Source of the DNA: Nitrospiraceae bacterium
Lineage (GTDB): Bacteria > Nitrospirota > Nitrospiria > Nitrospirales > Nitrospiraceae
Length of the DNA stretch: 64,000 nt
Assembly: GCA_919902505.1 (NCBI GenBank)
Contig: CAKKRE010000007.1
Span: 43,971-107,970, forward strand
Direction of reading: 5' to 3'
Both the position numbers and the translations under genes were made by a program. A model generated the notes under the pieces. That model ran no database searches, was not told the DNA's origin, and saw only the letters and a program-made list of their open reading frames with translations. Positions within the stretch are counted from its first letter, which is position 1, and the number at the start of each line of letters is the position of its first letter. Positions 4,057-64,000 of this stretch are shown in pieces.

Positions 4057-5493
4057 TTACCGATCGGCGGGCTTCAGGACGACGTAAAATGCCCGCCCTT
4101 CGCGCAGGACGCGCAAGAGAATCGTCTCGCCGCGTTTGACCTTGGAGACGGCCACCGTGAATTCTCCGACCGTGCCTGTGTCGACGCGGTTGACTTCCTT
4201 GACCAGATCGCCTTCCCGCAATCCTTCGGCCTGGGCCAGACTTCCTGCTTCCACTTTCGAGATGAGCACGCCTCTGCTCTCGTTCAGTCGAAACTTCTCC
4301 GCCAGACCCGCAGTCAGGTCCTGCACGTCGATTCCCAGCTTCAAGTCCGTCCTGCTCTGAGGGAGAGAGGCCGTCACCACCGCGTCACGGCGCTCGCTGA
4401 GGGCCACGTTGAGCGTGAGGCGTTTGCCGTCCCGCACGACTTCAACATGCGTCGTGGAGCCGGGGTCTAACGCGGCGACCAGGCGGGACAGTTTGTTCGG
4501 GGTGTCGACGAGCGCGCCGTCGACTTTGGTGATGACATCGCCCGGCTTGATGCCGGCCAGAGCAGCCGGGTCCCGTTCGAATACTTCGTTCACCAGGACA
4601 CCTTCGTTCTCATCCACGCCGAATTTGTTGGCCAGGTCCGGCGTCAGCGGTTGCAGACCGACGCCCAGCCAGGCCCGCACGACCTTTCCCTTCGAGATGA
4701 GCTGGTTCATCACCTGCTTGGCCATGTTGGAGGGAATCGCAAATCCGATCCCCTGGGCAAAATTGATGATGGCCGTGTTGATGCCGATGACATCTCCCCG
4801 CAGATTGAAGAGCGGTCCGCCGGAGTTCCCTGGATTGATGGAGGCGTCGGTCTGGATGAAGTTTTCGTACCGCGAGAGATTGATGTTTTCCCGTCCGATG
4901 CCGCTGACCACGCCGAGCGTGACTGTTCGATCCAAACCGAAGGGGTTTCCAACGGCCAGCACCCACTGACCGACCTTCACTCCGGTGGAGTCACCGAACC
5001 GGGCGGCGGGGAGGGGGTGGTCGGTCGTGACCTTCAGCACAGCGAGGTCGGTATCCGGATCCTTGCCGACGACTTGCGCGAACAATTTCGTCTTGTCGGA
5101 CAGGCGGACCTCGACTTCCGTGGCATCACCGACCACATGGTTATTCGTAATGATGTGGCCGTTCGGATCGACGATGACGCCGGAGCCGGAGCCTGTCGAG
5201 TTCGGAACCCGCTCACCGGATCCGTCGCGCGACTTGCCCAGGGTCTGAATCGGGAAAATGCTCACGACCGAAGGTTTGGCCTCCTCGGCCAAGTCTGTGA
5301 TCACGGTTTGGAGTTCTTCGAGTATGCGTAACCCGGGCGATTCTTTCCGGGGGGGGGATGCAAGGTCGGTAGCGGCCAGGGTGATCGCTGAGGTGCCCGT
5401 CAGCCACCCGGAGAAACTGAGAGCGAGAACGAGTGCGGTCGCGAAGGAAGTCTGTGTTTTCATGCTAGGCAAGCTCCGGGGGCCGAATCTCAC
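4057..5493 (-). CDS. Do/DegQ (HtrA) family periplasmic serine protease with two PDZ domains
   Basis: Catalytic context GNSGGPLFN, NNHVV, DTDLAVLK; two PDZ-like C-terminal repeats. Confidence 0.93.
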   Translation of the reverse strand: MRFGPRSLPSMKTQTSFATALVLALSFSGWLTGTSAITLAATDLASPPRKESPGLRILEELQTVITDLAEEAKPSVVSIFPIQTLGKSRDGSGERVPNSTGSGSGVIVDPNGHIITNNHVVGDATEVEVRLSDKTKLFAQVVGKDPDTDLAVLKVTTDHPLPAARFGDSTGVKVGQWVLAVGNPFGLDRTVTLGVVSGIGRENINLSRYENFIQTDASINPGNSGGPLFNLRGDVIGINTAIINFAQGIGFAIPSNMAKQVMNQLISKGKVVRAWLGVGLQPLTPDLANKFGVDENEGVLVNEVFERDPAALAGIKPGDVITKVDGALVDTPNKLSRLVAALDPGSTTHVEVVRDGKRLTLNVALSERRDAVVTASLPQSRTDLKLGIDVQDLTAGLAEKFRLNESRGVLISKVEAGSLAQAEGLREGDLVKEVNRVDTGTVGEFTVAVSKVKRGETILLRVLREGRAFYVVLKPADR

Positions 5494-5550: not shown

Positions 5551-6189
5551 TTAGGCGGATTTCGATGCCGCCGGTCGTTGGAAATGCGGAAGCCAGTGAG
5601 CCAGGTCGTGGCGAAGGCCGACCAGAATCACAATGTCGTCGGGCCGGAGCGTCATGGAATCGGAGAGCGGGAGCAGGAATGGGCCTCGAAAGACCGCCAC
5701 GATGTGGGTTGTCGACGGCAGGTCGAATTCACCGATCGGATGGCCGATGACCGGTGCGCCACGGGCGACGAGCACGCGTTCGATGGCCGCGTCACGCAGA
5801 CCCAGTTCGCGCTGCATGGTCAGCAGGTCCTCGTGGGCCAATTCGATCTTGAGGTCACGGATATGCCGCTCGATCTGTTGCAAGGCGGCCTGTTGCCCCT
5901 TGATGCGGTCGGAGGCTGTGCGGATGGTGTCTTCCAGGGTTGAGAGGGTGGCGGGAGCGGCCGACGGCATGGTGCCGGAGGGTTTGGTTCCCAGCTCTGC
6001 GATGCGGCGACCGATCTGTCGATGGATGGCGTGAATCTGGTTCAGAATCGTCGTGGCCTGACCATGGAGGCGCAGGACATGGACTTTGCGGTTGACGCGT
6101 TCCGCGATGGCGACAATCGTCTCGTAGAGTGCGCTGCCGGTGAGGAACAGTTCTTTGTGGACGCGAGCCAACAGCTCAAAAGACAGCAT
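5551..6189 (-). CDS. TrkA-C domain protein (RCK_C), putative transport-associated
   Basis: C-terminal GAPVIGHPIGEFDLPSTTHIVAVFRG...LRPDDIVILVGLRHDL resembles a TrkA-C domain. Confidence 0.6.
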   Translation of the reverse strand: MLSFELLARVHKELFLTGSALYETIVAIAERVNRKVHVLRLHGQATTILNQIHAIHRQIGRRIAELGTKPSGTMPSAAPATLSTLEDTIRTASDRIKGQQAALQQIERHIRDLKIELAHEDLLTMQRELGLRDAAIERVLVARGAPVIGHPIGEFDLPSTTHIVAVFRGPFLLPLSDSMTLRPDDIVILVGLRHDLAHWLPHFQRPAASKSA

Positions 6190-6218: not shown

Positions 6219-6824
6219 TCAACTTGCTTGTCCGATTCGAGATTCCGTCCCACTCCACAACCGAACCAGATTGTCTTTGTGTCTCACCCAAATCAAGAGG
6301 CTGACGACACAGGCAAACCCGATAAAAGTCCAAGACCGATGAAACAGCAACGCCACGACTGGAAACATGGCAAAGGCGAACAGTGCGCCGCCCGACGAAT
6401 ATTTCCACAGGAATACGGCGCCGACCCACAAACCCATTAGGGTGAGGCCGATCCACGGAGCGACGCCCAGGGCTGCGCCTAATGCGGTGGCCACGCCCTT
6501 TCCACCCTTGAATCCCAGAAACACCGAGTGCAAATGACCGATGACCGAGGCCAGCGCGACCCAGAGAATGGCCGACTCCTGATGCAACAACATCGTGCCG
6601 ACCCAGCCGGCCAGCCAGCCTTTTCCGATGTCGCCCAGCAGCGTCAGGATTCCGGCCTTTTTCCCACTCACGCGCAGGACATTGGTGAATCCCACGTTCC
6701 TGCTGCCGGCGGTGCGTGGATCCACAGCACCCAGGAGGCGTGATACCACGACTCCAAAAGGAATCGATCCAAGGAGATAGCTGGAAAGGATGAGGAACCC
6801 GATGAGCCAGGGACTGTCCATCAA
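6219..6824 (-). CDS. plsY: Glycerol-3-phosphate acyltransferase PlsY
   Basis: Motifs YLLGSIPFGVVVSRL, GSRNVGFTNVLRVSGKKAGILTLLGDIGKG, FKGGKGVATALG. Confidence 0.93.
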   Translation of the reverse strand: MMDSPWLIGFLILSSYLLGSIPFGVVVSRLLGAVDPRTAGSRNVGFTNVLRVSGKKAGILTLLGDIGKGWLAGWVGTMLLHQESAILWVALASVIGHLHSVFLGFKGGKGVATALGAALGVAPWIGLTLMGLWVGAVFLWKYSSGGALFAFAMFPVVALLFHRSWTFIGFACVVSLLIWVRHKDNLVRLWSGTESRIGQAS

Positions 6825-9707: not shown

Positions 9708-11309
9708 TTAGTGGCCGCATTTGCGGCGTAGCGCCGCTCCCACAAACCCGCTGAATAACGGATGCGGGTGATGCGGGCGTGACTTGTATTCCGGGTGAAA
9801 CTGCGTGGCCAGGAACCAGGGGTGGTTCTGCAACTCGACGATTTCAACCAGGCGACCGTCAGGAGATAGGCCGCTCAAAATCAGTCCTTTGGCCGTCAAC
9901 TGCTCGCGATAGGCATTGTTGAATTCGTATCGATGACGATGCCGCTCGCGTACTTCACTGACCCCATACATCTTCTGCGCCAGCGTCCCCTCGCCCAGCT
10001 TGCAGGCATAGGCGCCGAGCCGCATGGTGCCGCCCTTGTCGTTGACCGACTGTTGGTCGGACATCAGGTGAATCACCGGATGCGGGGTCTTTTCATCGAA
10101 TTCCGCGCTGTTGGCACTGGTGAGGCCTGCGACGTTACGCGCAAATTCGATGGTGGCGCATTGCATGCCCAGGCAGAGGCCGAGGAAGGGAATCTGATGT
10201 TCTCGCGCATATTGGATCGTGACGATTTTGCCTTCGATCCCCCGTGCGCCGAAACCGCCAGGAATGAGAATCCCGTCGGCCTCGCGGAGAATACGCTCGG
10301 TCCCCTGCCGCTCCACCTCTTCGGATTCGATCCAGTTCACGTTCACACGGGTTTCATGATCGATGCCGCCGTGCACCAGGGCTTCGGCCAGACTTTTGTA
10401 GCACTCCTTCAAACCGGCATACTTCCCAACCAATGCGATCGACACCTCGTGTTTCGGGTGTTTGATCTTCTGCACCATCGCGTCCCATTCGCGAAGATTC
10501 GGGGGGCCGGTTTCCAGCTTGAGCAGGCGGACGATCAATTCGTCCAAACCTTCCTTGCGAAACACGATGGGCACTTCGTAGATGGTCTCGACATCCTTGG
10601 CCGTAATGACCGCATCTTTTTCCACGTTGCAGAACATGGCGATCTTGGCCTTGAGCTCCGGCGGTAGGTAGCGGTCGGTGCGGCACAATAGAATGTTCGG
10701 TTGAATACCGATTTCACGCAGCTTGTTGACGGAATGTTGCGTCGGTTTGGTTTTCAATTCGCCGGCCGCCCCGATGTAGGGCACCAGCGTGAGGTGCACG
10801 TAGAGCACGTTGTCGCGTCCCACGTCGTACGGGATTTGCCTGATGGCTTCCAGGAACGGCAAGCTTTCGATGTCACCGACAGTCCCGCCGATCTCGACAA
10901 TGGTGACGTCCATGCCTTGCGAGATACGCATGATGCATTGCTTGATCTCGTCCGTGACATGGGGCACGACTTGCACCGTCCCGCCCAGGTAATCGCCGCG
11001 CCGCTCCTTTGTGATGACTGCGTGATAAATGCGGCCGGTGGTGTAGTTGTTCTCGCGCGTCAGCGTCAAGGAGGTATACCGCTCATAGTGGCCAAGATCG
11101 AGGTCGGTTTCCGCCCCGTCCTCCGTGACGTAGACCTCTCCATGCTGGTACGGATTCATGGTGCCGGGATCGACGTTGATGTAGGGATCGAGCTTGAGGA
11201 ACGTGATCTTCAGCCCGCGGCTTTCAAGCAGATTGCCGATGGACGCGGAAGCCAGCCCCTTTCCGAGCGACGACACGACACCGCCGGTCACAAAGATCAG
11301 TTTGCTCAT
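9708..11309 (-). CDS. pyrG: CTP synthase
   Basis: [33 protein letters not shown]...; glutaminase GLCLGMQ; ATG at 11309 (ORF open to 11330). Confidence 0.97.
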
Positions 11310-11326: not shown

Positions 11327-12118
11327 TCATGGTTGAGTGATGCCGAGTCCGGTTGCACGGGTGCGAAGTTGTTCCAGCGCGCCGGGCACGTCCTCGGGGC
11401 TATCGATGCGTAATGAGCCATGGGCAGTTTCCCACACGCGGATACGTATCCCGTTCTCCAACGCGCGCAGTTGCTCGAGCTTTTCGGCGTCTTCCAGAGT
11501 GCCTGTCGGTAATGCGGTTAGGCGTTGCAATGTTTCTCGGGTATAGATGTACAGGCCCAGGTGGATGAAATGTAACCCCGGGACGGCAGCCCGTTTCGGA
11601 TCATCCCGCACCAGCGGAATCGGTGCGCGCGAAAAGTAGAGGGCATACCCCTCGCGGTCGGTGGTGACCTTGACCACGCCCGGGTTGTGGAAATCCTGGT
11701 CGGAGTCGATCCGTCGCTTCAATGTGCCCATCGTGGCGTCGCTGGCCAGAAACGGCTCGACCAGGTCCGTGATGAGATCGGGATGCAGCAGGATCTCGTC
11801 TCCCTGCAGATCTACGAAACAGTCGCCGGTGCGGTTGTCGGCGACGGCGGCGACGCGGTCGGTGCCGGTGCGATAGGGCTCCGTCATCATGAGGACCTGT
11901 CCTCCGAATCGTTCGACCGCCGACTTGATACGTTCGTCGTCCGTCGCGACCAGGACATCGTTGACGGCGCGACAAGCTTTCGCCTGCTCATAGACATGTT
12001 GGATCATCGGCTTGCCCAGCAACTGAACCAGCGGTTTGCCCGGGAACCGCGAGGACCCGTACCGGGCCGGAATCACCACCGTCACCGAGCGTTTCACGTC
12101 AGCCCTGTCCCAGTGCAT
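11327..12118 (-). CDS. kdsB: 3-deoxy-manno-octulosonate cytidylyltransferase
   Basis: [33 protein letters not shown]...[15 protein letters not shown]. Confidence 0.95.
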
Positions 12119-56151: not shown

Positions 56152-57396
56152 GTGGCAGTCGGTAAATCGGCGACCGCACCGCGATGGGGCATTCTCGGCC
56201 TCCTGTTCGCGATCAGCGCCGTGACCTACATGGATCGGGTCAACATCTCCGTGACGGCGCGACAGATGATGCCCGCCTATGGCCTGACCGATCAGGACAT
56301 GGGCTACATCTTTTCCGCCTTCGTGTTCGGCTACGCGCTCTGCCAGATTCCAGGCGGCTGGCTGGGCGATCGCTGGGGCGCTCGTATCGTGTTGGCCGGT
56401 GCGCTGGTGTGGTGGTCGTTCTTCACGGCCTTGACGGCGGTGGCCGCAACGCTGCCGTTGGCCGCCATGGTTGGGACGGTCGGTGCCCTGATCGTCGTGC
56501 GTTTTCTCCTCGGTGTCGGAGAAGCGGTGGCCCTGCCGAACTTCAATCGGGCCGTCGCCGATTGGATTCCGCCTGCGCAACGTGGACTCGGCATCGGCAT
56601 TGCCATCGGCGGTATCGGCATCGGCGCCGCGATCACCCCTCCCCTCGCCTCCTGGGTCATGGTCAACTATCACTGGCAGACGGTGTTCTACCTCTCCGCG
56701 TTGATCGGTCTGGTGGTGGCCCTGTTGTGGGTGCTCTGCTCCCGCGAGCAGAAGGCGGCAGATGGCGCGGCGTCGATACAAGCGCGCGTGGTGGTTCCCT
56801 GGCGGCAGTTCGCGGCTTCCTCATCCCTGCGCTGGCTGGTGTTGAGTTACGCCTGCCTCGGGTACGTCGCCTACATTTATATGTCCTGGTTTTATCTCTA
56901 CCTGGTAAATGTGCGCGGCATCGATCTGTTGCGTGGCGGCTGGCTCGCGGCTGCGCCCTTTGTCGCGATCCTCGTGTTCTGTCCGCTCGGCGGCTGGACT
57001 ACGGATCGTCTGGTCTCGACCCTCGGTCTGAGGGAGGCCCGTATGATCGTCGGCATGATCGGCATGGGGCTGGCCGGTGGGCTGATTGCCGTCGGCGCCT
57101 GGGCCGACTCACAGACCGTAGCCATCGCCAGCCTTTCACTCGGCGCCGGCTGGCTCTATTTCACCGTCGGCGCCTACTGGAGCGTGACCACCGATCTCTC
57201 CAAGACGCATGCGGGCACGCTGTCGGGCGTGATGAACATGGGCGCCAATGTGGGCGGGGTTATTTCACCCAGCCTCACACCCTGGCTCGCCGATCACTGG
57301 GGCTGGACGGCCTCGTTACTGATGGCGGCGCTCATCGCCCTCTGCGGCGGCATCATGTGGATGAAGATCGATGCGAGCGAGGGGTTGGGCAGGTAG
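56152..57396 (+). CDS. MFS transporter (anion:cation symporter-like)
   Basis: GILGLLFAISAVTYMDRVNISVTARQMMPAYGLTDQDMGYIFSAFVFGYALCQIPGGWLGDRWGAR; 12-TM-like hydrophobicity; GTG start. Confidence 0.9.
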   Translation: MAVGKSATAPRWGILGLLFAISAVTYMDRVNISVTARQMMPAYGLTDQDMGYIFSAFVFGYALCQIPGGWLGDRWGARIVLAGALVWWSFFTALTAVAATLPLAAMVGTVGALIVVRFLLGVGEAVALPNFNRAVADWIPPAQRGLGIGIAIGGIGIGAAITPPLASWVMVNYHWQTVFYLSALIGLVVALLWVLCSREQKAADGAASIQARVVVPWRQFAASSSLRWLVLSYACLGYVAYIYMSWFYLYLVNVRGIDLLRGGWLAAAPFVAILVFCPLGGWTTDRLVSTLGLREARMIVGMIGMGLAGGLIAVGAWADSQTVAIASLSLGAGWLYFTVGAYWSVTTDLSKTHAGTLSGVMNMGANVGGVISPSLTPWLADHWGWTASLLMAALIALCGGIMWMKIDASEGLGR

Positions 57397-57506
57397 CAGA
57401 ACTAGTTGGTTTTGGTAAAGAGGCTTTAGTAGAACCTCAGGTTACGGAGCTTTGCCGCGGGTGCATGCCTTAGTTTGCCGTGGTGGAATGAACCGATGTC
57501 ACGCTG

Positions 57507-57875
57507 TCATGAAGGTTCAGGATGGGAAGGTGCGGGACGAACACGGATGCGGCCAGGCTCAATCGTGACAATGGCTCCGGCCTGTAGTTCGAGCCCGTAC
57601 CGTGCGAGAACCATTAAGCAGAATCTTGCCTGCTGGACGGCAGGTAAGATCGCGAGTCGAATAATTCCTGCATGCGCCTGCCCGCGTACCACAGCGAGTT
57701 CACCAAAATCTTTGTCCAGCGTGATGAGAATTCGACCTTCGTGATGAGCTAAGGCCATGATCTCGTCATCGCCGGGATCCGTTGGCCAGTCCCCGGCCCA
57801 GACGACATCGTGCCCTGCGGATTGTAGTGGGCCGACGGCGCCACCCCAAATGCAGGTATCGAGAAGAAGTTTCAC
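57507..57875 (-). CDS. DUF5615 PIN-like protein (putative toxin)
   Basis: MKLLLDTCIWGGAV...DDEIMALAHHEGRILITLDKDFGELAVVRGQAHAGIIRL. Confidence 0.88.
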   Translation of the reverse strand: MKLLLDTCIWGGAVGPLQSAGHDVVWAGDWPTDPGDDEIMALAHHEGRILITLDKDFGELAVVRGQAHAGIIRLAILPAVQQARFCLMVLARYGLELQAGAIVTIEPGRIRVRPAPSHPEPS

Positions 57876-58123
57876 GAAGCCGATTCGAGAGGCAGTGGCT
57901 CGATCCGCTCATGGCCCACGAGTCGATGAGCATAGGCAAGGCAGGCTTGGATATCTGCCGGCTCCAGCCACGGATAGCCATGAAGAATGGTTTCTGGCGT
58001 GTCACCGGCGGCCAGCATCCCCAGCACGTGTTCGACGGCCAGCCGCCGACCTCGAACGATAGGCTTGCCGGAAAAAATCTTCGGATTCACCGTGATACGT
58101 TTGAGGAGCAGTTGTTCATCCAT
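57872..58123 (-). CDS. DUF433 protein (putative antitoxin)
   Basis: ITVNPKIFSGKPIVRGRRLAVEHVLGMLAAGDTPETILHGYPWLEPADIQACLAYA; stop/start overlap with DUF5615 gene. Confidence 0.9.
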   Translation of the reverse strand: MDEQLLLKRITVNPKIFSGKPIVRGRRLAVEHVLGMLAAGDTPETILHGYPWLEPADIQACLAYAHRLVGHERIEPLPLESAS

Positions 58124-58319
58124 GGCAGACCTCGTTTGTCCGCATGATAGCGTACTTGGATAGAGAAGAAAACAGATGCTTCCGTGATAAGGCCGACTCG
58201 CGGTGGAGCAAGATTCGGAACCCCTTTCATTGTAGTATCCTGTCCTGACTACGCGGAGGTATATGGTTCGTTCCTAATGCAGTGCGGGAAAGTTTGTTCA
58301 TGGAGCAGAGGAGGTTGGA

Positions 58320-58483
58320 ATGAAGGCACGTCTCGTACAAATCGGAAATCCTCAGCACCGGCCATCGGTCCATTCGCTCGGCATCCAAACCGCGCGCCGG
58401 ATGGGGTCAAGCGTGTAGGAACGATCACTAACGTGACACGCGCACAGGTCCTTACTCTGCTTGCCGAACTCTTTGCCCCGTAA
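58320..58483 (+). pseudogene. Degenerate MazE/MazF remnant (antitoxin N-terminus joined to toxin C-terminus)
   Basis: AGGAGG then MKARLVQIGN... (MazE/AbrB-type N-terminus) truncated at TAG; another frame gives GVKRVGTITNVTRAQVLTLLAELFAP*, resembling a MazF C-terminus. Confidence 0.55.
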
Positions 58484-58496
58484 TCCTTCGACGGTC

Positions 58497-58633
58497 TCAT
58501 TTCCCTCAGCCTCACACCCTGGCTCGCCGATCATTGGGGCTGGACGGCCTCGTTACTGGTGGCGGCGCTCATCGCCCTCTGCGGCGGGGTGATGTGGGTA
58601 AAGATCGATGCGAGCGAGGGGTTGAGGGAATGA
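58497..58633 (+). pseudogene. MFS transporter 3'-end fragment, copy B
   Basis: Near-identical to 57260-57396: CAGCCTCACACCCTGGCTCGCCGATCATTGGGGCTGGACGGCCTCGTTACTGGTGGCGGCGCTCATCGCCCTCTGCGGCGGG...GAGGGGTTGAGGGAATGA. Confidence 0.92.
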
Positions 58634-58756
58634 GGCCGACGGCGAGGGATGGGCGTGGCCCATAGCGAACGCGGATACGGTACAGTTTGCCCTCGCCGCT
58701 CATCCTCTGCTATAGTATGAATCGATATCACAATTGGATGGTAACTGGAGATATCT

Positions 58757-58993
58757 ATGAGTACCATTACAGTGACATTGCCGGACGAATTGCTCAAGCG
58801 CTGCACACGCTACGCCGAATCACTCCACGTATCGAGGGCGGCGTATATCCGACAATCCTTGGAACGCATGAACCGCGAAACCGAGCGACAGCTTCGTGCC
58901 GATCGTCTCATCCAGGCCTCGCACAAGGTGCGCGGTGAAAGTATGCGCATCAACGCGGAGTTTGATGCCATTGAGGCAGACCTTCATGCGTAA
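58757..58993 (+). CDS. Ribbon-helix-helix (CopG-type) antitoxin
   Basis: MSTITVTLPDELLKRCTRYAESLHVSRAAYIRQSLERMNRE; overlaps the toxin start by 8 nt. Confidence 0.85.
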   Translation: MSTITVTLPDELLKRCTRYAESLHVSRAAYIRQSLERMNRETERQLRADRLIQASHKVRGESMRINAEFDAIEADLHA

Positions 58994-59330
58994 GCGCGGC
59001 GAGATTTGGCTTGCCGACTTGAGTCCTCGCCGTGGGACGGAACCGGGAAAGACCAGACCCGTGCTCATCGTCCAAGCTCAAGCGTTGCTCGATGCCGGAC
59101 ATCCCTCCACCCTGATCATTCCCCTCACCACCCAGCTCATCGACGACGCGGAACCGCTCCGTCTCAGAATTACGGCCCAGGGCAAACTTCGGAAAGACTC
59201 CGATCTGCTCTTGGATCAACTCCGCGCGATCGATAACCAACGATTGATCGAAGGTCCGTTAACCCGCCTCACCACGATCCAACTCAGGACCGTAACCCAC
59301 GCCCTCAAAGAGGTGATGGATCTCGGTTAG
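58986..59330 (+). CDS. MazF/PemK family toxin
   Basis: MRKRGEIWLADLSPRRGTEPGKTRPVLIVQAQALLDAGHPSTLIIPLTTQL...LLLDQLRAIDNQRL. Confidence 0.92.
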   Translation: MRKRGEIWLADLSPRRGTEPGKTRPVLIVQAQALLDAGHPSTLIIPLTTQLIDDAEPLRLRITAQGKLRKDSDLLLDQLRAIDNQRLIEGPLTRLTTIQLRTVTHALKEVMDLG

Positions 59331-59375
59331 TTCCAGAAAAGACTCCAAGTACCTGTTCTATTCCCCGCCTGCTTG

Positions 59376-59565
59376 TATATTACAGTCGGCGCCTACTGGA
59401 GCGTGACGACCGATCTCTTTGGGCGGGGTTATTTCACCCAGCCTCACACCCTGGCTCGCCGATCACTGGGGCTGGACGGCCTCGTTACTGATGGCGGCGC
59501 TCATCGCCCTCTGCGGCGGCATGATGTGGATGAAGGTCGATGCGAGGGAGGGGTTGAAGGAGTGA
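59376..59565 (+). pseudogene. MFS transporter 3'-end fragment, copy C (internal deletion)
   Basis: GTCGGCGCCTACTGGAGCGTGACGACCGATCTCT joined directly to TGGGCGGGGTTATTTCACCCAGCCTCACACC...; net loss of about 50 nt relative to the intact gene, giving a frameshift. Confidence 0.93.
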
Positions 59566-59694
59566 GGAAGGTTGGAAAGAATTACTTTTGGAAACACTGT
59601 GCTCGATGAATCCCTGTTACAGCCTGCAGCATCAGAACTTCCTGCCGATCCCGCATGTTCAAACCCTGCATTTCAAATGCCCTTCCCTGTTTTC

Positions 59695-59985
59695 CTACGA
59701 AGCCTTGGCGGTCTTGAGATGCAGCTCCGCCTGTACTCGCTCGAGTATAAAAAGTTTGAGCAGCGTCTGATAAGGAACGTCACGTTTGTTAGCCAGCGTC
59801 TTAAGTTGCTCCAGCAGAGATTTTGGTAGCCTGAGTGAAATCGTCTCCGTCGATGGTTTGAGCCGTGGAAAAACCACTCTGCGGCTTTTCGAGTAATCGA
59901 TATATTCCGTTGAGTCGTACGACGCCCAGAAGGCGGCTTCCTGCGCTTCAGTCTTGAACGTCGGCTTCTGCTTTAACTTGCTCAT
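59695..59985 (-). CDS. BrnA/CopG-type antitoxin
   Basis: TEAQEAAFWASYDSTEYIDYSKSRRVVFPRLKPSTETISLRLPKSLLEQLKTLANKRDVPYQTLLKLFI. Confidence 0.82.
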   Translation of the reverse strand: MSKLKQKPTFKTEAQEAAFWASYDSTEYIDYSKSRRVVFPRLKPSTETISLRLPKSLLEQLKTLANKRDVPYQTLLKLFILERVQAELHLKTAKAS

Positions 59986-60130
59986 GATACTGTCTCCGTT
60001 CTTTCGTGCTCATATCCCGCGCCGAAATGATGCGAATCCTTCGCTTGCGAATGGTGAACACGAGAAAGAGCTTTCGCGATGCGTCGGTGTGCCCCAGAAC
60101 GCAGCAATATTGTGGGCAGGAGTCCCCATA
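59965..60130 (-). pseudogene. Truncated BrnT (DUF497) toxin remnant
   Basis: Minus-strand GHTDASRKLFLVFTIRKRRIRIISARDMSTKERRQYHEQ matches the BrnT C-terminus; the usual N-terminus is missing; overlaps BrnA start. Upstream limit approximate. Confidence 0.6.
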
Positions 60131-60251
60131 TATCCCGGTGCGTTGCTGAATCGTACTTCCAGCAGATTGGTTTCAGGGTCGGGCCACTTTCTGGGCCATG
60201 AACCGACCCAGGAGGATTCGGAGGGCTAGGTAGGAAAGGTCGGGTTACGCG

Positions 60252-60491
60252 TCATCCGGTTTTCGGTAGATGAAACTCCGCAGTCACCGGCAATTGGAAG
60301 GTCTCCCCTTTGGCAACTCGGGAAGAGAAAAAGAGGATTTCCAGATTCTCAAGATCGCGTGTTTCCGGATTGAGTCGAGCCACGACCCCATAGCCCAATT
60401 CCTCGGAGTCCTGTTCTGGATAGGGCTTGGTCTTTCCTAGATAGAGAATGTCACCGGTCTTGTCGTATTCAACTGTCAGGGACGTTTCCAT
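60252..60491 (-). CDS. DUF2283 protein (putative antitoxin)
   Basis: TVEYDKTGDILYLGKTKPYPEQDSEELGYGVVARLNPETRDLENLEILFFSSR. Confidence 0.82.
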   Translation of the reverse strand: METSLTVEYDKTGDILYLGKTKPYPEQDSEELGYGVVARLNPETRDLENLEILFFSSRVAKGETFQLPVTAEFHLPKTG

Positions 60492-60799
60492 GTCACAATT
60501 CCTCCTGAGAGTTGCCGTGCCACATACGCGGTCACTACCCAGTAGCGATCGGGGGGAGAGGGATCGGCAACAACGACTACCACGACGAATTTACCTCCTT
60601 TGAGGTCAGGAAACCAGTGGGAAAACAGCAGGCTGTTTGTGAATCGCGGGTCCCTTCGTACTTCCTCAGGATTACGAACAGTTTGCGACAAATAGTCATG
60701 ATGAGCGGGCAAGAGATCCGGATGCTTATCCCGAATATGCGCTTCGCGCTCTTCGGTCAGTTCAACGTGAGTGTTCAGGTAAGGACAATCCAAATTCAT
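60476..60799 (-). CDS. Small protein, putative nuclease-like toxin partner of DUF2283
   Basis: VELTEEREAHIRDKHPDLLPAHHDYLSQTVRNPEEVRRDPRFTNSLLFSHWF...KFVVVVVVADPSPPDRYWVVTAYVARQ; 16-nt overlap with the DUF2283 gene. Confidence 0.55.
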   Translation of the reverse strand: MNLDCPYLNTHVELTEEREAHIRDKHPDLLPAHHDYLSQTVRNPEEVRRDPRFTNSLLFSHWFPDLKGGKFVVVVVVADPSPPDRYWVVTAYVARQLSGGIVTWKRP

Positions 60800-61047
60800 G
60801 AAGATGATTCCTGGAAGATGTGGCTGAAAACAAAAACACTATGAATGTTTTCCCTCAAGCATCCGTGGCAGGATACATCGACAGGGATGGTTTGGGAAGT
60901 GTCGGTTTGCGTGGTCGTGTGAGGTAGAAATGGCATTGAAGTGGTAATGTGGCAGCCGGAGAACAGCCATTTGGTCAAAGGGTATGTAGCTCTGATAAAT
61001 CATGCTGCAGAGACAAAAAGAAGGGCTTAGCAGCAGCTTCCTCGCTT

Positions 61048-61163
61048 CCTGGCTCGCCGATCACTGGGGCTGGACGGCCTCGTTACTGTTGGCGGCGCTC
61101 ATCGCCCTCTGCGGCGGCATCATGTGGATGAAGGTCGATGCGAGCGTGGGGTTGAAGGAGTGA
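61048..61163 (+). pseudogene. MFS transporter 3'-end fragment, copy D
   Basis: CCTGGCTCGCCGATCACTGGGGCTGGACGGCCTCGTTACTGTTGGCGGCGCTCATCGCCCTCTGCGGCGGCATCATGTGGATGAAGGTCGATGCGAGCGTGGGGTTGAAGGAGTGA. Confidence 0.93.
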
Positions 61164-61215
61164 GGCCGTAGTGTGAATTCTTGACCGAGCGCAATTACAC
61201 AAGCGTTCGGCGCGG

Positions 61216-61695
61216 TCATTGAAATTCCTCTCGAACCCTCGCGGCCATCGACGCGACGCGTGCGACGTCAACACTCATGACGATGTCGACTGAGTCCAAG
61301 GTCTCGATCGGAAACCACTCCGCCTCCAACGCATCACCGGCCGCCTGTGGGACGCCTGAAATCCACTCGCATAATACGGCGATCAACACATAATGGGTCA
61401 CCAACTGTCCATTCGCGTTCCGATGGAAGGCGTCGACCGCCGTGAACACGTGCAGCGGACGCACGACGAGACCGGTTTCTTCCGCCACCTCCCGTGCCGC
61501 GGCAGCCTGGATCGGTTCTCCCGGCTCGATCTTGCCACCGGGAAAGCCCCACTTCCCCGCGTCCGGCTGATTCGCGCGGCGGACGAGTAGAACCTCGCCG
61601 CCTCGGAGCACCACGCCGATCGCCGCGCAAACCGGCGTGACGGTCATGGCCGGCAGCGAGCCTTTTTGTGCCTTCGTCTTGCCATGGTGACTCAT
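61216..61695 (-). CDS. NUDIX hydrolase (MutT-like)
   Basis: NUDIX box GGKIEPGEPIQAAAAREVAEETGL; start 61695 within the ORF open to 61914. Confidence 0.92.
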   Translation of the reverse strand: MSHHGKTKAQKGSLPAMTVTPVCAAIGVVLRGGEVLLVRRANQPDAGKWGFPGGKIEPGEPIQAAAAREVAEETGLVVRPLHVFTAVDAFHRNANGQLVTHYVLIAVLCEWISGVPQAAGDALEAEWFPIETLDSVDIVMSVDVARVASMAARVREEFQ

Positions 61696-62082
61696 GTGAT
61701 GATTCCTCCAATCCGACCTGTGCTGGGCCGCGTCCGTGTCGCATCCTTGTCGGGCATGCAGTAGATAAAGGATGGGGCCGGGTCGTTTTCGAAAACTCTT
61801 CAGACCTTCCACCCTCCATAAATCCCCCGGGACACCGGACTGAAATACGGCGCCGGGACCATCGACGTCTCCCTTACTCCGGTGGGAAGCGAAGTTGGCA
61901 GCCGGAAAGTGCAAGGGGCAGCACCCAGGCTAGGCAGTCTACCTCACACTGTCAAGCAGGCCCACATGGGATGCTCACCGACCGGCGCCGGTCTTCGAAG
62001 CGGCGGCGATGGCGTGAGTGACCAAAAGTACGTTGAGCGGTTGACCGGCCTCACGAAGAGCCATGCGATCAGGTTGTCGTGC

Positions 62083-62120
62083 GTGATGTGGGTGAAGATC
62101 GATGCGAGGGTGAGGGGTTG
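62083..62120 (+). pseudogene. MFS transporter 3'-end remnant, copy E
   Basis: GTGATGTGGGTGAAGATCGATGCGAGGGTGAGGGGTTG versus copy B GTGATGTGGGTAAAGATCGATGCGAGCGAGGGGTTG. Confidence 0.7.
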
Positions 62121-62128
62121 CGCCATCT

Positions 62129-64000
62129 TCACCCCGGTCCAGGATACAAACTTGCTCCGCGATCCCCATAGGTTTCGTAGACGTGCTCAAACACTGCGGA
62201 GCATTTCTGTTGATACAAGTCAGGGGTGTACGCACGCGGAAGGCCCTGGTCTAGAAGATCCTCGATAGTGAGTTTGATCTGCGAGCGGGCCGAGGCCTTC
62301 TGACGCCAATTCAGCACCAGAAGTTGCTTTAATTTCTGCAGCATGTCCCGGGCGACCTTCTTTACATCAGTCCGTTCCTCTGCAGACAGATCCGGTGCCG
62401 GGCGCGTCAGAATATCGAAGACCACGAGTTCCTCTTCGGAGAGGCGCTCTCTGACGTGCCGTTCCTGTTCGTCGTTTAAACTACGACTAAGCGCGAGGAG
62501 TTCCTTGAACAGTTCGTCGATGTTCCGGCTACCCGCGTTATAGGATTCAATCAGCTCTTCAAACTTGGTGAGATAGTCAGTTCTGGTCCGGTTCAGACGG
62601 ACGAGTTTGTCCAGGTGAGCACGGATTGCCGCCTTAAGTTGCTCCAGATCGATATTCTTGGTCTTGGACTTCCCAAAGCGCTTGGCCAAAGCCTCGAAGT
62701 CGATCTTCGTCAGATCGATCACGCTATGACCAGATTTTCCTTGTGGGATGTGAAACCCATCCGCGGCCACAGATGCATCCAGAATCTGATTCAGGTCGGC
62801 CATCACGACTGAGATGTCTGCCGGTCCCTCGCCCGTTCGTTCACGGATGGTCTCGGCTATGGTCGTCAGGCAGGCGACGCGCGAGGCAAACTCCAGCACG
62901 GAGGGGTCCGGCTTCACAGCTTGGAAGAGGGTCCGCACCAAACTTTCCTGCCCGAGAAAGTCCTTGCGAAGGGGGTCCGGAGAAATCAGGCATTCGACCG
63001 CTTCAGCAATCTTCGTCAGCCGGTCGAGAGTTCCTGCAGGTGTCTGTTCAATCTCCAGTAAACCAACTCCATGCGCACGGCAGAAGGCTTCTGCCCCCGC
63101 GATCGCTTGGCGAAGACCTTCCACGAGCTTCTGCTTGTCCCGGATGGGCTGCTCCCCACCACGGCCTTTGGCATAGATCGCCAGAGCCTTCTCCAACGAG
63201 GCAAAGACGTTCGCGTAGTCCACGATGAGGCCGCTATGCTTGCCGGGGAATACGCGGTTGGCTCGCGCGATGGTCTGCATCAGCGTGTGGTTCCGCATGG
63301 GCTTATCCAGATAAATCGTTGAGCAGCTTGGCGCATCGAAACCGGTCAGCCACATAGCGCAGACGAAAACGAGGCGCAGCGGGTCGTTCGCCTCCTTGAA
63401 CTTCTCGTCCAGCGCCTCATCATTCATCCGCTTCCGGTGGGGCGCGATGTCGAGACCCTGCTTCTTCATCTGCTCGATCTCATTTTGAGCAGGCGAGACG
63501 ATCAGCGCCATATCGGTCGTCCGAATCACATCCAGCCGTGCCTTGAGTTCCCGGATGCGATCAGGATAGCCGGCCTTCGCCCCGTAGGTCATGAGCCTGG
63601 CCAATTCCTGCTCGACACGTTGCTCTTCGACCTTCCAGTGCACCCGTACCTTGTCGTGCATCCGCAAGGCTGTGGCCTTATCGATGGAAATAACCATTGC
63701 CTTACCCTGGAAGCCACGCCCGAGGAAATGTTGCACGATATCCTTGGCAATGGTCTCAAGCCGTTCATCGCGGGTCAGTAGTTGATATTGCCGCCCCAGC
63801 TCACGTTCCAATCGTTTCTCTTGGTCATCATCCAAGCCGGCGGCTTCGATCAAGTTGTAGATATCGTCGTTGAGATTCGGATTCTCCAATCGGAGTTCCG
63901 GCGTCCGGTTTTCATAGAAGAGCGGGACCGTCGCGCCGTCTTCAACCGACTGCTGGAAGTCATAGATGGAGACATAGTCGCCGAACACCTCGCGGGTCCG
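62129..64000 (-). CDS. hsdR: Type I restriction enzyme R subunit, partial (5' end beyond window)
   Basis: [52 protein letters not shown] helicase motifs; HsdR C-terminal region; ORF open at right edge. Confidence 0.92.

Follow-up and report, generated by a model that had tools for sequence, protein, structure and literature searches.

It has long been an open question by what route toxin–antitoxin (TA) modules enter chromosomes when no mobile element can be seen, and several described systems offer points of comparison for the locus considered here, an array of small cassettes behind a major facilitator superfamily (MFS) transporter gene in a 64,000-nucleotide stretch of a Nitrospira draft genome (assembly GCA_919902505.1, contig CAKKRE010000007.1, positions 43,971–107,970; hereafter, the window). 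One is insertion with long target duplication (Nobusato 2000; Furuta 2010), which PMC3874152 and PMC1643837 summarise: single insertions of restriction-modification genes, in which a module without a transposase is flanked by a direct target duplication of variable length (~100 bp) and relatives hold a single target copy. The Nitrospira arrays are alike in that long direct target duplications of variable length flank the inserts and single-copy relatives exist; they are unlike it in holding mostly TA and other cassettes, placed serially at one gene end, shared between species and separated by mosaic tails. The minimal mobile element (Saunders and Snyder 2002; Snyder 2007), as defined in PMC3082526, is a region in which a pair of conserved genes encloses varying cassettes taken in by homologous recombination. 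At the MFS locus, variable cassettes likewise lie between the MFS gene and genes for a metallo-beta-lactamase (MBL)-fold protein and a peptidyl-prolyl isomerase (PPIase), and recombinant tails and cross-clade cassettes point to incorporation by homologous recombination; unlike the minimal mobile element, the cassettes stand in series, with fragments of the flanking gene between them as internal homology points.

Other systems share single features with the locus. Orphan cdiA-CT/cdiI arrays behind contact-dependent growth inhibition (CDI) loci hold displaced same-orientation 3' ends with cargo and are thought to arise by serial insertion (PMC4927057), but CDI tails encode toxins and those arrays hold transposase or integrase genes, whereas the tails studied here are short remnants of the transporter C-terminus with separate cargo and do not encode toxin tips of the CDI/Rhs kind. 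In Microcystis, a TA module lies between 152-bp direct repeats behind the MaOC1 gene, the repeats starting 14 bp past the stop codon (PMC7935541); this too is a TA pair between direct repeats just past a gene's stop, but it is a single module without an array, and its repeats are not described as a gene tail. Tandem accretion of integrative and mobilizable elements (IMEs) and cis-mobilizable elements (CIMEs) is similarly serial behind an intact gene, and integron arrays also have small cassettes, often TA, with repeats between them. Taken together, the MFS array may be regarded as similar to a minimal mobile element with internal homology points, whose founding step would match long target duplication and whose appearance recalls an orphan CDI array. 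In a partial literature search, no description was found of a multi-cassette array split by copies of a host gene's tail. The tail-bounded cassettes probably arose by rare insertions with long target duplication and spread afterwards through homologous recombination within the tails, a reading to which we give a probability of about two in three; the displaced tails appear to be shared recombination handles that move cassettes between species without a dedicated enzyme.

The MFS array in the window

The genome containing the window (G000; draft, 84 contigs, with the window on contig C7) was compared within a panel of 29 Nitrospira genomes, part of a family set of 175 (146 outside the genus); the genus includes Candidatus Nitrospira defluvii (FP929003.1) and Nitrospira sp. 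UBC2 (CP092081.1). Cassette families were named alpha (DUF433/DUF5615), beta (MazE/MazF), gamma (ribbon-helix-helix (RHH)/MazF), delta (a DUF2283-like gene plus an unknown gene), epsilon (NUDIX), zeta (UPF0149/SEC-C), eta (flavin mononucleotide (FMN) oxidoreductase), theta (signal peptidase) and iota (DUF3313). The features of the window are as follows.

56152–57396, + strand: MFS transporter gene, intact, with insertions at its 3' end (open reading frame of 414 aa; PF07690, E 2.5e-61)
57251–57396, + strand: tail A, the native MFS 3' end (reference copy, repeat family D1)
57507–57875, − strand: DUF5615 protein, toxin-like, alpha (PF18480, E 1.9e-16)
57872–58123, − strand: DUF433 protein, antitoxin-like, alpha (PF04255, E 8.8e-23)
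about 58352–58496, + strand: beta mazEF remnant with a deletion, a mazE piece fused to the mazF 3' end (at the DNA level, the pieces match the intact G024 beta cassette at 95% and 86%)
58498–58634, + strand: tail copy B, ending at an MFS-type stop codon (start ~15 nt past the stop of the mazF remnant)
58757–58993, + strand: RHH antitoxin, gamma (PF01402, E 4e-4)
58986–59330, + strand: MazF/PemK toxin, gamma (PF02452, E 2.8e-23)
59366–59567, + strand: tail copy C, with a 51-nt internal deletion (self-comparison and cross-genome tail search)
59695–59985, − strand: BrnA/CopG antitoxin (PF12441, E 1.8e-27; the BrnA model scores below its cut-off)
60252–60491, − strand: DUF2283-like protein, delta (PF10049, E 7e-4, below cut-off, a weak match)
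60476–60799, − strand: conserved small protein of no assigned family, delta (no Pfam match)
61041–61165, + strand: tail copy D (self-comparison and cross-genome tail search)
61216–61914, − strand: NUDIX hydrolase, epsilon (PF00293, E 2.7e-24)
62082–62121, + strand: tail copy E, a 40-nt remnant (whole-genome BLAST)
62129–64000, − strand: C-terminal part of HsdR, convergent with the MFS gene and cut by the contig end (PF11867, E 7.9e-39; PADLOC REase_I, E 1.3e-79)

By self-comparison, the 137-nt tail at 57251–57387 was matched at 58488–58624 (90%), 59420–59556 (98%) and 61018–61154 (85%), and a 35-nt tail block at 62081–62115, all on the + strand; the upstream part of copy C (59366–59419) matches 57146–57199 at 85%. 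A BLAST search of the whole genome with the tail found five places (E 7e-112 to 3.5e-5), all of them in the array, which excludes chance. The recurrence of the MFS tail as same-strand copies B–E, reported in the first-pass annotation, is thereby confirmed, with no copy outside the array; the boundaries it gave were corrected for the start of C, to 59366 once the internal deletion is allowed for, and for the start of D, to near 61041.

The first interval combines a DUF5615/DUF433 cassette with the deleted mazEF cassette, and the delta cassette, including the 60476–60799 protein, has 89–90% identity in G017 and G021. Among the earlier module calls, DUF5615/DUF433 with a MazEF remnant, RHH/MazF and NUDIX stood, but "nuclease-like" found no Pfam counterpart and DUF2283 only the weak match listed above. 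The TA function of alpha, beta and gamma is predicted from domain matches, and the modules of the window are not all TA; an array of "TA/defence" genes, as had been proposed, describes part of the content but is too narrow, since the slot also holds FMN oxidoreductase, signal peptidase, UPF0149, DUF3313 and type I restriction genes. The start of the NUDIX cassette (window 61166–61200) resembles the region upstream of the mazEF cassette (GTGTGAATTCTTGAC...), which suggests a NUDIX cassette built on a deleted mazEF cassette.

Distribution across Nitrospira

The MFS tail was found in 27 of the 29 Nitrospira genomes, and an extra copy lies just behind the MFS gene in 14 of these 27, namely G000, G001, G002, G005, G008, G012, G016, G017, G019, G020, G021, G024, G026 (a remnant) and G028; an extra tail in G014 was left out of the counts because it is 100% identical and sits at a contig end (overlap). 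Tail copies flank nearly every cassette in the 14 array genomes, including the closed ones (G001, G016 and G021). Single-tail genomes comprise the closed G004 and G022 and about 11 others, in which other DNA still follows the MFS gene. None of the 146 family genomes outside the genus has extra tails behind the MFS gene, and one draft from another genus gave two distant tail matches on separate contigs. Across the genus, the locus shows intermediate stages: alleles with a single tail, with one cassette or with several cassettes, and also fixed junctions and recombinant tails. The range of alleles bears out the earlier proposal of serial insertion at one gene 3' end with tails tied to cassette borders. 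An assembly error or one simple tandem tail duplication, which the first-pass annotation had named as refuting that proposal, might be suspected in a draft of 84 contigs, but the three closed genomes carry arrays in different combinations and with unequal tail starts; this explanation was rejected, and its probability is negligible.

Transfer of cassettes between species

The stretches between tails belong to families common to several species, with 78–97% DNA identity. Between distant hosts, beta cassettes are about 89–92% identical compared to 76–81% for the MFS body (a gap of 11–13 points). Similarly, the gap for zeta is 7–13 points across clades (for instance, 91.6% versus 79.2% between G024 and G011), that for epsilon between G000 and G018 is about 10 points (88% versus 78%), and that for delta relative to G000 is 6–9 points (89–90% versus 80–84%). 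In close relatives, cassette and MFS identities are similar. Because cassette identity exceeds MFS-body identity between distant hosts, the cassettes have passed between species and entered at the same site; on these sequence comparisons, horizontal transfer between species is shown. The gamma, beta and delta cassettes stand almost always at the MFS locus within the genus, with exceptions in gamma-like copies of G003 and G005 and alpha-like copies of G021 and G017 away from it. The diverged RHH/MazF homologues on G003:C18 (L124) and G005:C24 (L125), 80–81% identical, adjoin long CRISPR-like arrays of 61–72-nt direct repeats.

The order of cassettes differs among genomes: alpha/beta remnant, gamma, BrnA plus delta and epsilon in G000; gamma and beta in G001; beta and delta in G021; gamma, zeta, beta and epsilon in G024; and beta, eta and zeta in G005. 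Simple loss from one ancestral array is inadequate because the order of beta and zeta conflicts between G005 and G024. These data also bear on plain allelic exchange, in which whole islands would be swapped between the conserved MFS and MBL-fold/PPIase flanks of a minimal mobile element or hotspot, the tails being passive scars left by old insertions and homogenised afterwards by gene conversion. ComEC, present in the four genomes tested, is compatible with DNA uptake, although it is no proof, and the PPIase gene and an adjacent gene lie 1–19 kb downstream of the MFS gene in several genomes with variable content between, as such exchange would have it; but order conflicts and the sharing of single cassettes by distant hosts require units smaller than the island, and breakpoints fall inside tails, and we regard this account as unlikely.

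Junctions and mosaic tails

Cassette bodies end shortly before the tail; for instance, the beta tail begins within ~15 nt of the mazF stop codon. The first base of the tail, numbered within the last 320 nt of the MFS gene (q), is characteristic of the family, at ~70 for gamma, ~113 for epsilon, ~148 for eta, ~185 for beta and ~200 for delta, and some copies are eroded at their start. The right edge of all tails is the MFS stop codon or lies within about 10 nt of it. Only a few nucleotides separate the last tail of G000 from the stop of the convergent hsdR, and a small harmless target of this kind, where MFS and hsdR converge, could alone explain the constant right edge.

In their stop-proximal part, tail copies from the same host clade group together (permutation p 0.002), and those behind the same cassette family do not (p 0.25). 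Epsilon tails at positions 113–185 have 92–97% mutual identity compared to 66–79% with their own MFS genes, and the last 67 nt of the tail copies of G020 are 100% and 89% like its own MFS gene. A maximum chi-square scan located a switch from family type to host type inside the epsilon tails of G020 (p 0.0002), G002 (p 0.0002) and G019 (p 0.001), and a weaker one inside the beta tails of G021 (p 0.013), G028 (p 0.014) and G005 (p 0.046); these p-values are per test and uncorrected for 14 tests, and the epsilon results survive correction. The duplicated tail is thus host-like in its distal part and cassette-type in its proximal part. Because of these switches, homologous recombination is taken, from the sequences, to have acted inside the tails, and both recombination at insertion and recombination afterwards fit.

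In a further rival account, each genome acquires its insertions independently, with long target duplication and no role for homology. This would resemble the pattern described for restriction-modification genes in PMC3874152 and PMC1643837, and the duplicated tail is indeed often closest to the host's own MFS tail (94% in G008, 91% in G017 and 93% in G016). However, one and the same cassette/tail junction is found in different clades (beta, at about q185), and the tails begin with cassette-type rather than host-type sequence, which makes such independence very improbable.

Enzymes and site features

The first-pass annotation, which had seen no integrase or attC site, likened the layout to serial integration at att sites. 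Site-specific elements of the IME/CIME kind, with att in the MFS 3' end, an integrase lost or acting in trans and one substitute tail per element, would account for gene-restoring serial accretion at a 3' end, which is their classic outcome, and for the 3' limit of the tails close to the stop codon. Matches to the tyrosine recombinase model (PF00589) occur in all 10 genomes searched, many of them elsewhere in those genomes and none close to the MFS locus; no systematic search was made for serine recombinases or transposases. Against an att mechanism, the tail start varies by family across about 130 nt, and no att core common to the families, as IMEs, CIMEs and integrative and conjugative elements (ICEs) would have, was found; the proximal tail follows the cassette and the distal tail the host, with breakpoints at several positions; and a sister array at hsdM, treated below, has the gene head instead of the tail. 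The att-site part of the earlier interpretation is not upheld, and elements of this kind are improbable as the source of the array. The tails also gave no consistent signal of folding as a structured site, with only the + strand of copy B standing out (z −3.7 versus mononucleotide shuffles).

An integron was rejected for lack of attC sites between cassettes and of the integrase IntI at the locus: no RYYYAAC/GTTRRRY motif pairs were found in six arrays, the IntI of G000 lies on another contig (C65:12832–13764; 462 bits versus a cut-off of 265), with fragments on C28 and C62, and none of seven relatives has a match over the cut-off. A phage or plasmid origin was also rejected, as there was no phage match and no MazF relative in viral contigs, and the sole match was one of 171 nt to DUF433 on Leptospira plasmids.

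Proposed mechanism

The MFS 3' end would serve as a genus-wide landing site. In the founding step, an illegitimate event would place a small module beside the MFS stop codon and duplicate the last ~50–250 nt of the gene; the MFS gene would stay intact through the upstream copy, and the far border of the module would be marked by the downstream copy, which lacks its 5' part. On this account each family has its own fixed cassette/tail junction. The cassette would then have MFS homology on its far side and, in the donor, on its near side as well, and crossovers in the MFS body or a tail at the left and in a tail copy at the right could add a cassette to, or remove it from, the array of another species without an integrase. 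Repeated rounds would yield an array of cassettes with mosaic tails between them. These two steps are the best-supported sequence of events, the second being supported by transfer and recombinant tails; integrase accretion and exchange of whole islands account for a smaller share of the data. The sequences show the cassette families, their specific junctions, horizontal transfer and recombinant tails. A gene-end duplication on which homologous recombination then acts would be a concrete route by which TA modules reach chromosomes, and its signature is simple enough to search for similar arrays elsewhere.

Several points weigh against this mechanism. The founding event was unseen; we infer how it happened from the structure of the arrays, and the uptake route and growth direction are likewise inferred. 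Unequal constraint on cassettes and MFS genes could produce part of the identity gap, and exchange of the whole MFS-to-PPIase island through flanking homology could explain part of the transfer. Gene conversion of a tail copy with the MFS gene of its host, at a later time and with no role in insertion, could also have made the tails mosaic, and the maximum chi-square scan found no significant breakpoint in gamma tails or in the alpha/beta tails of G000 and G012. Host-like identity drops with distance from the MFS gene in some arrays only, and growth at the MFS-proximal side is not established.

Island context and other gene-end arrays

The MFS end also bounds a larger variable island on its left side; the right core boundary of the island is formed by the MBL-fold and PPIase genes. 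In G016 the distance from the array to this boundary is ~1 kb; in G021, G001 and G024 it is about 10–19 kb, with type I restriction genes or other sequence in the gap. Window position 64000 is the end of contig C7, inside hsdR, and the remainder of the island is outside the view of the draft assembly.

A related arrangement occurs in closed G021 (L126 = G021:C1:847000–860000), with the following gene.

2842–4359 of L126, − strand: intact hsdM, named by its characteristic N-terminal sequence

Four fragments of the hsdM 5' end precede it (about 4990–5075, 5795–5870, 6035–6120 and 6605–6720), with small genes between them, including an alpha-type DUF433/DUF5615 stretch; a shorter version is present in G017. 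In the same locus, a 106-nt piece of the hsdR 3' end (11474–11579) is repeated at 10777–10882, across a mazF-like gene. The process extends beyond one gene, yet it is uncommon: in 1.1 Mb of G001, the MFS array was the sole clear case, and most of the remaining closely spaced direct repeats represented paralogous genes or internal repeats. An integrase-free counterpart of the integron, in which Nitrospira gene tails and heads would be reusable tags in the role of attC and TA/defence cassettes would be stacked and traded at several gene ends, is a tentative extension that is less likely than not.

The restriction-modification cluster of L126 (2842–11579) adjoins a macro-domain protein and a neighbour that are DarTG-like in look. 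At G001:C1:1043840–1046025, 217 nt from the start of a small gene recur (87%) beyond HNH and RelE-like genes, possibly a further gene-end duplication around a toxin gene.

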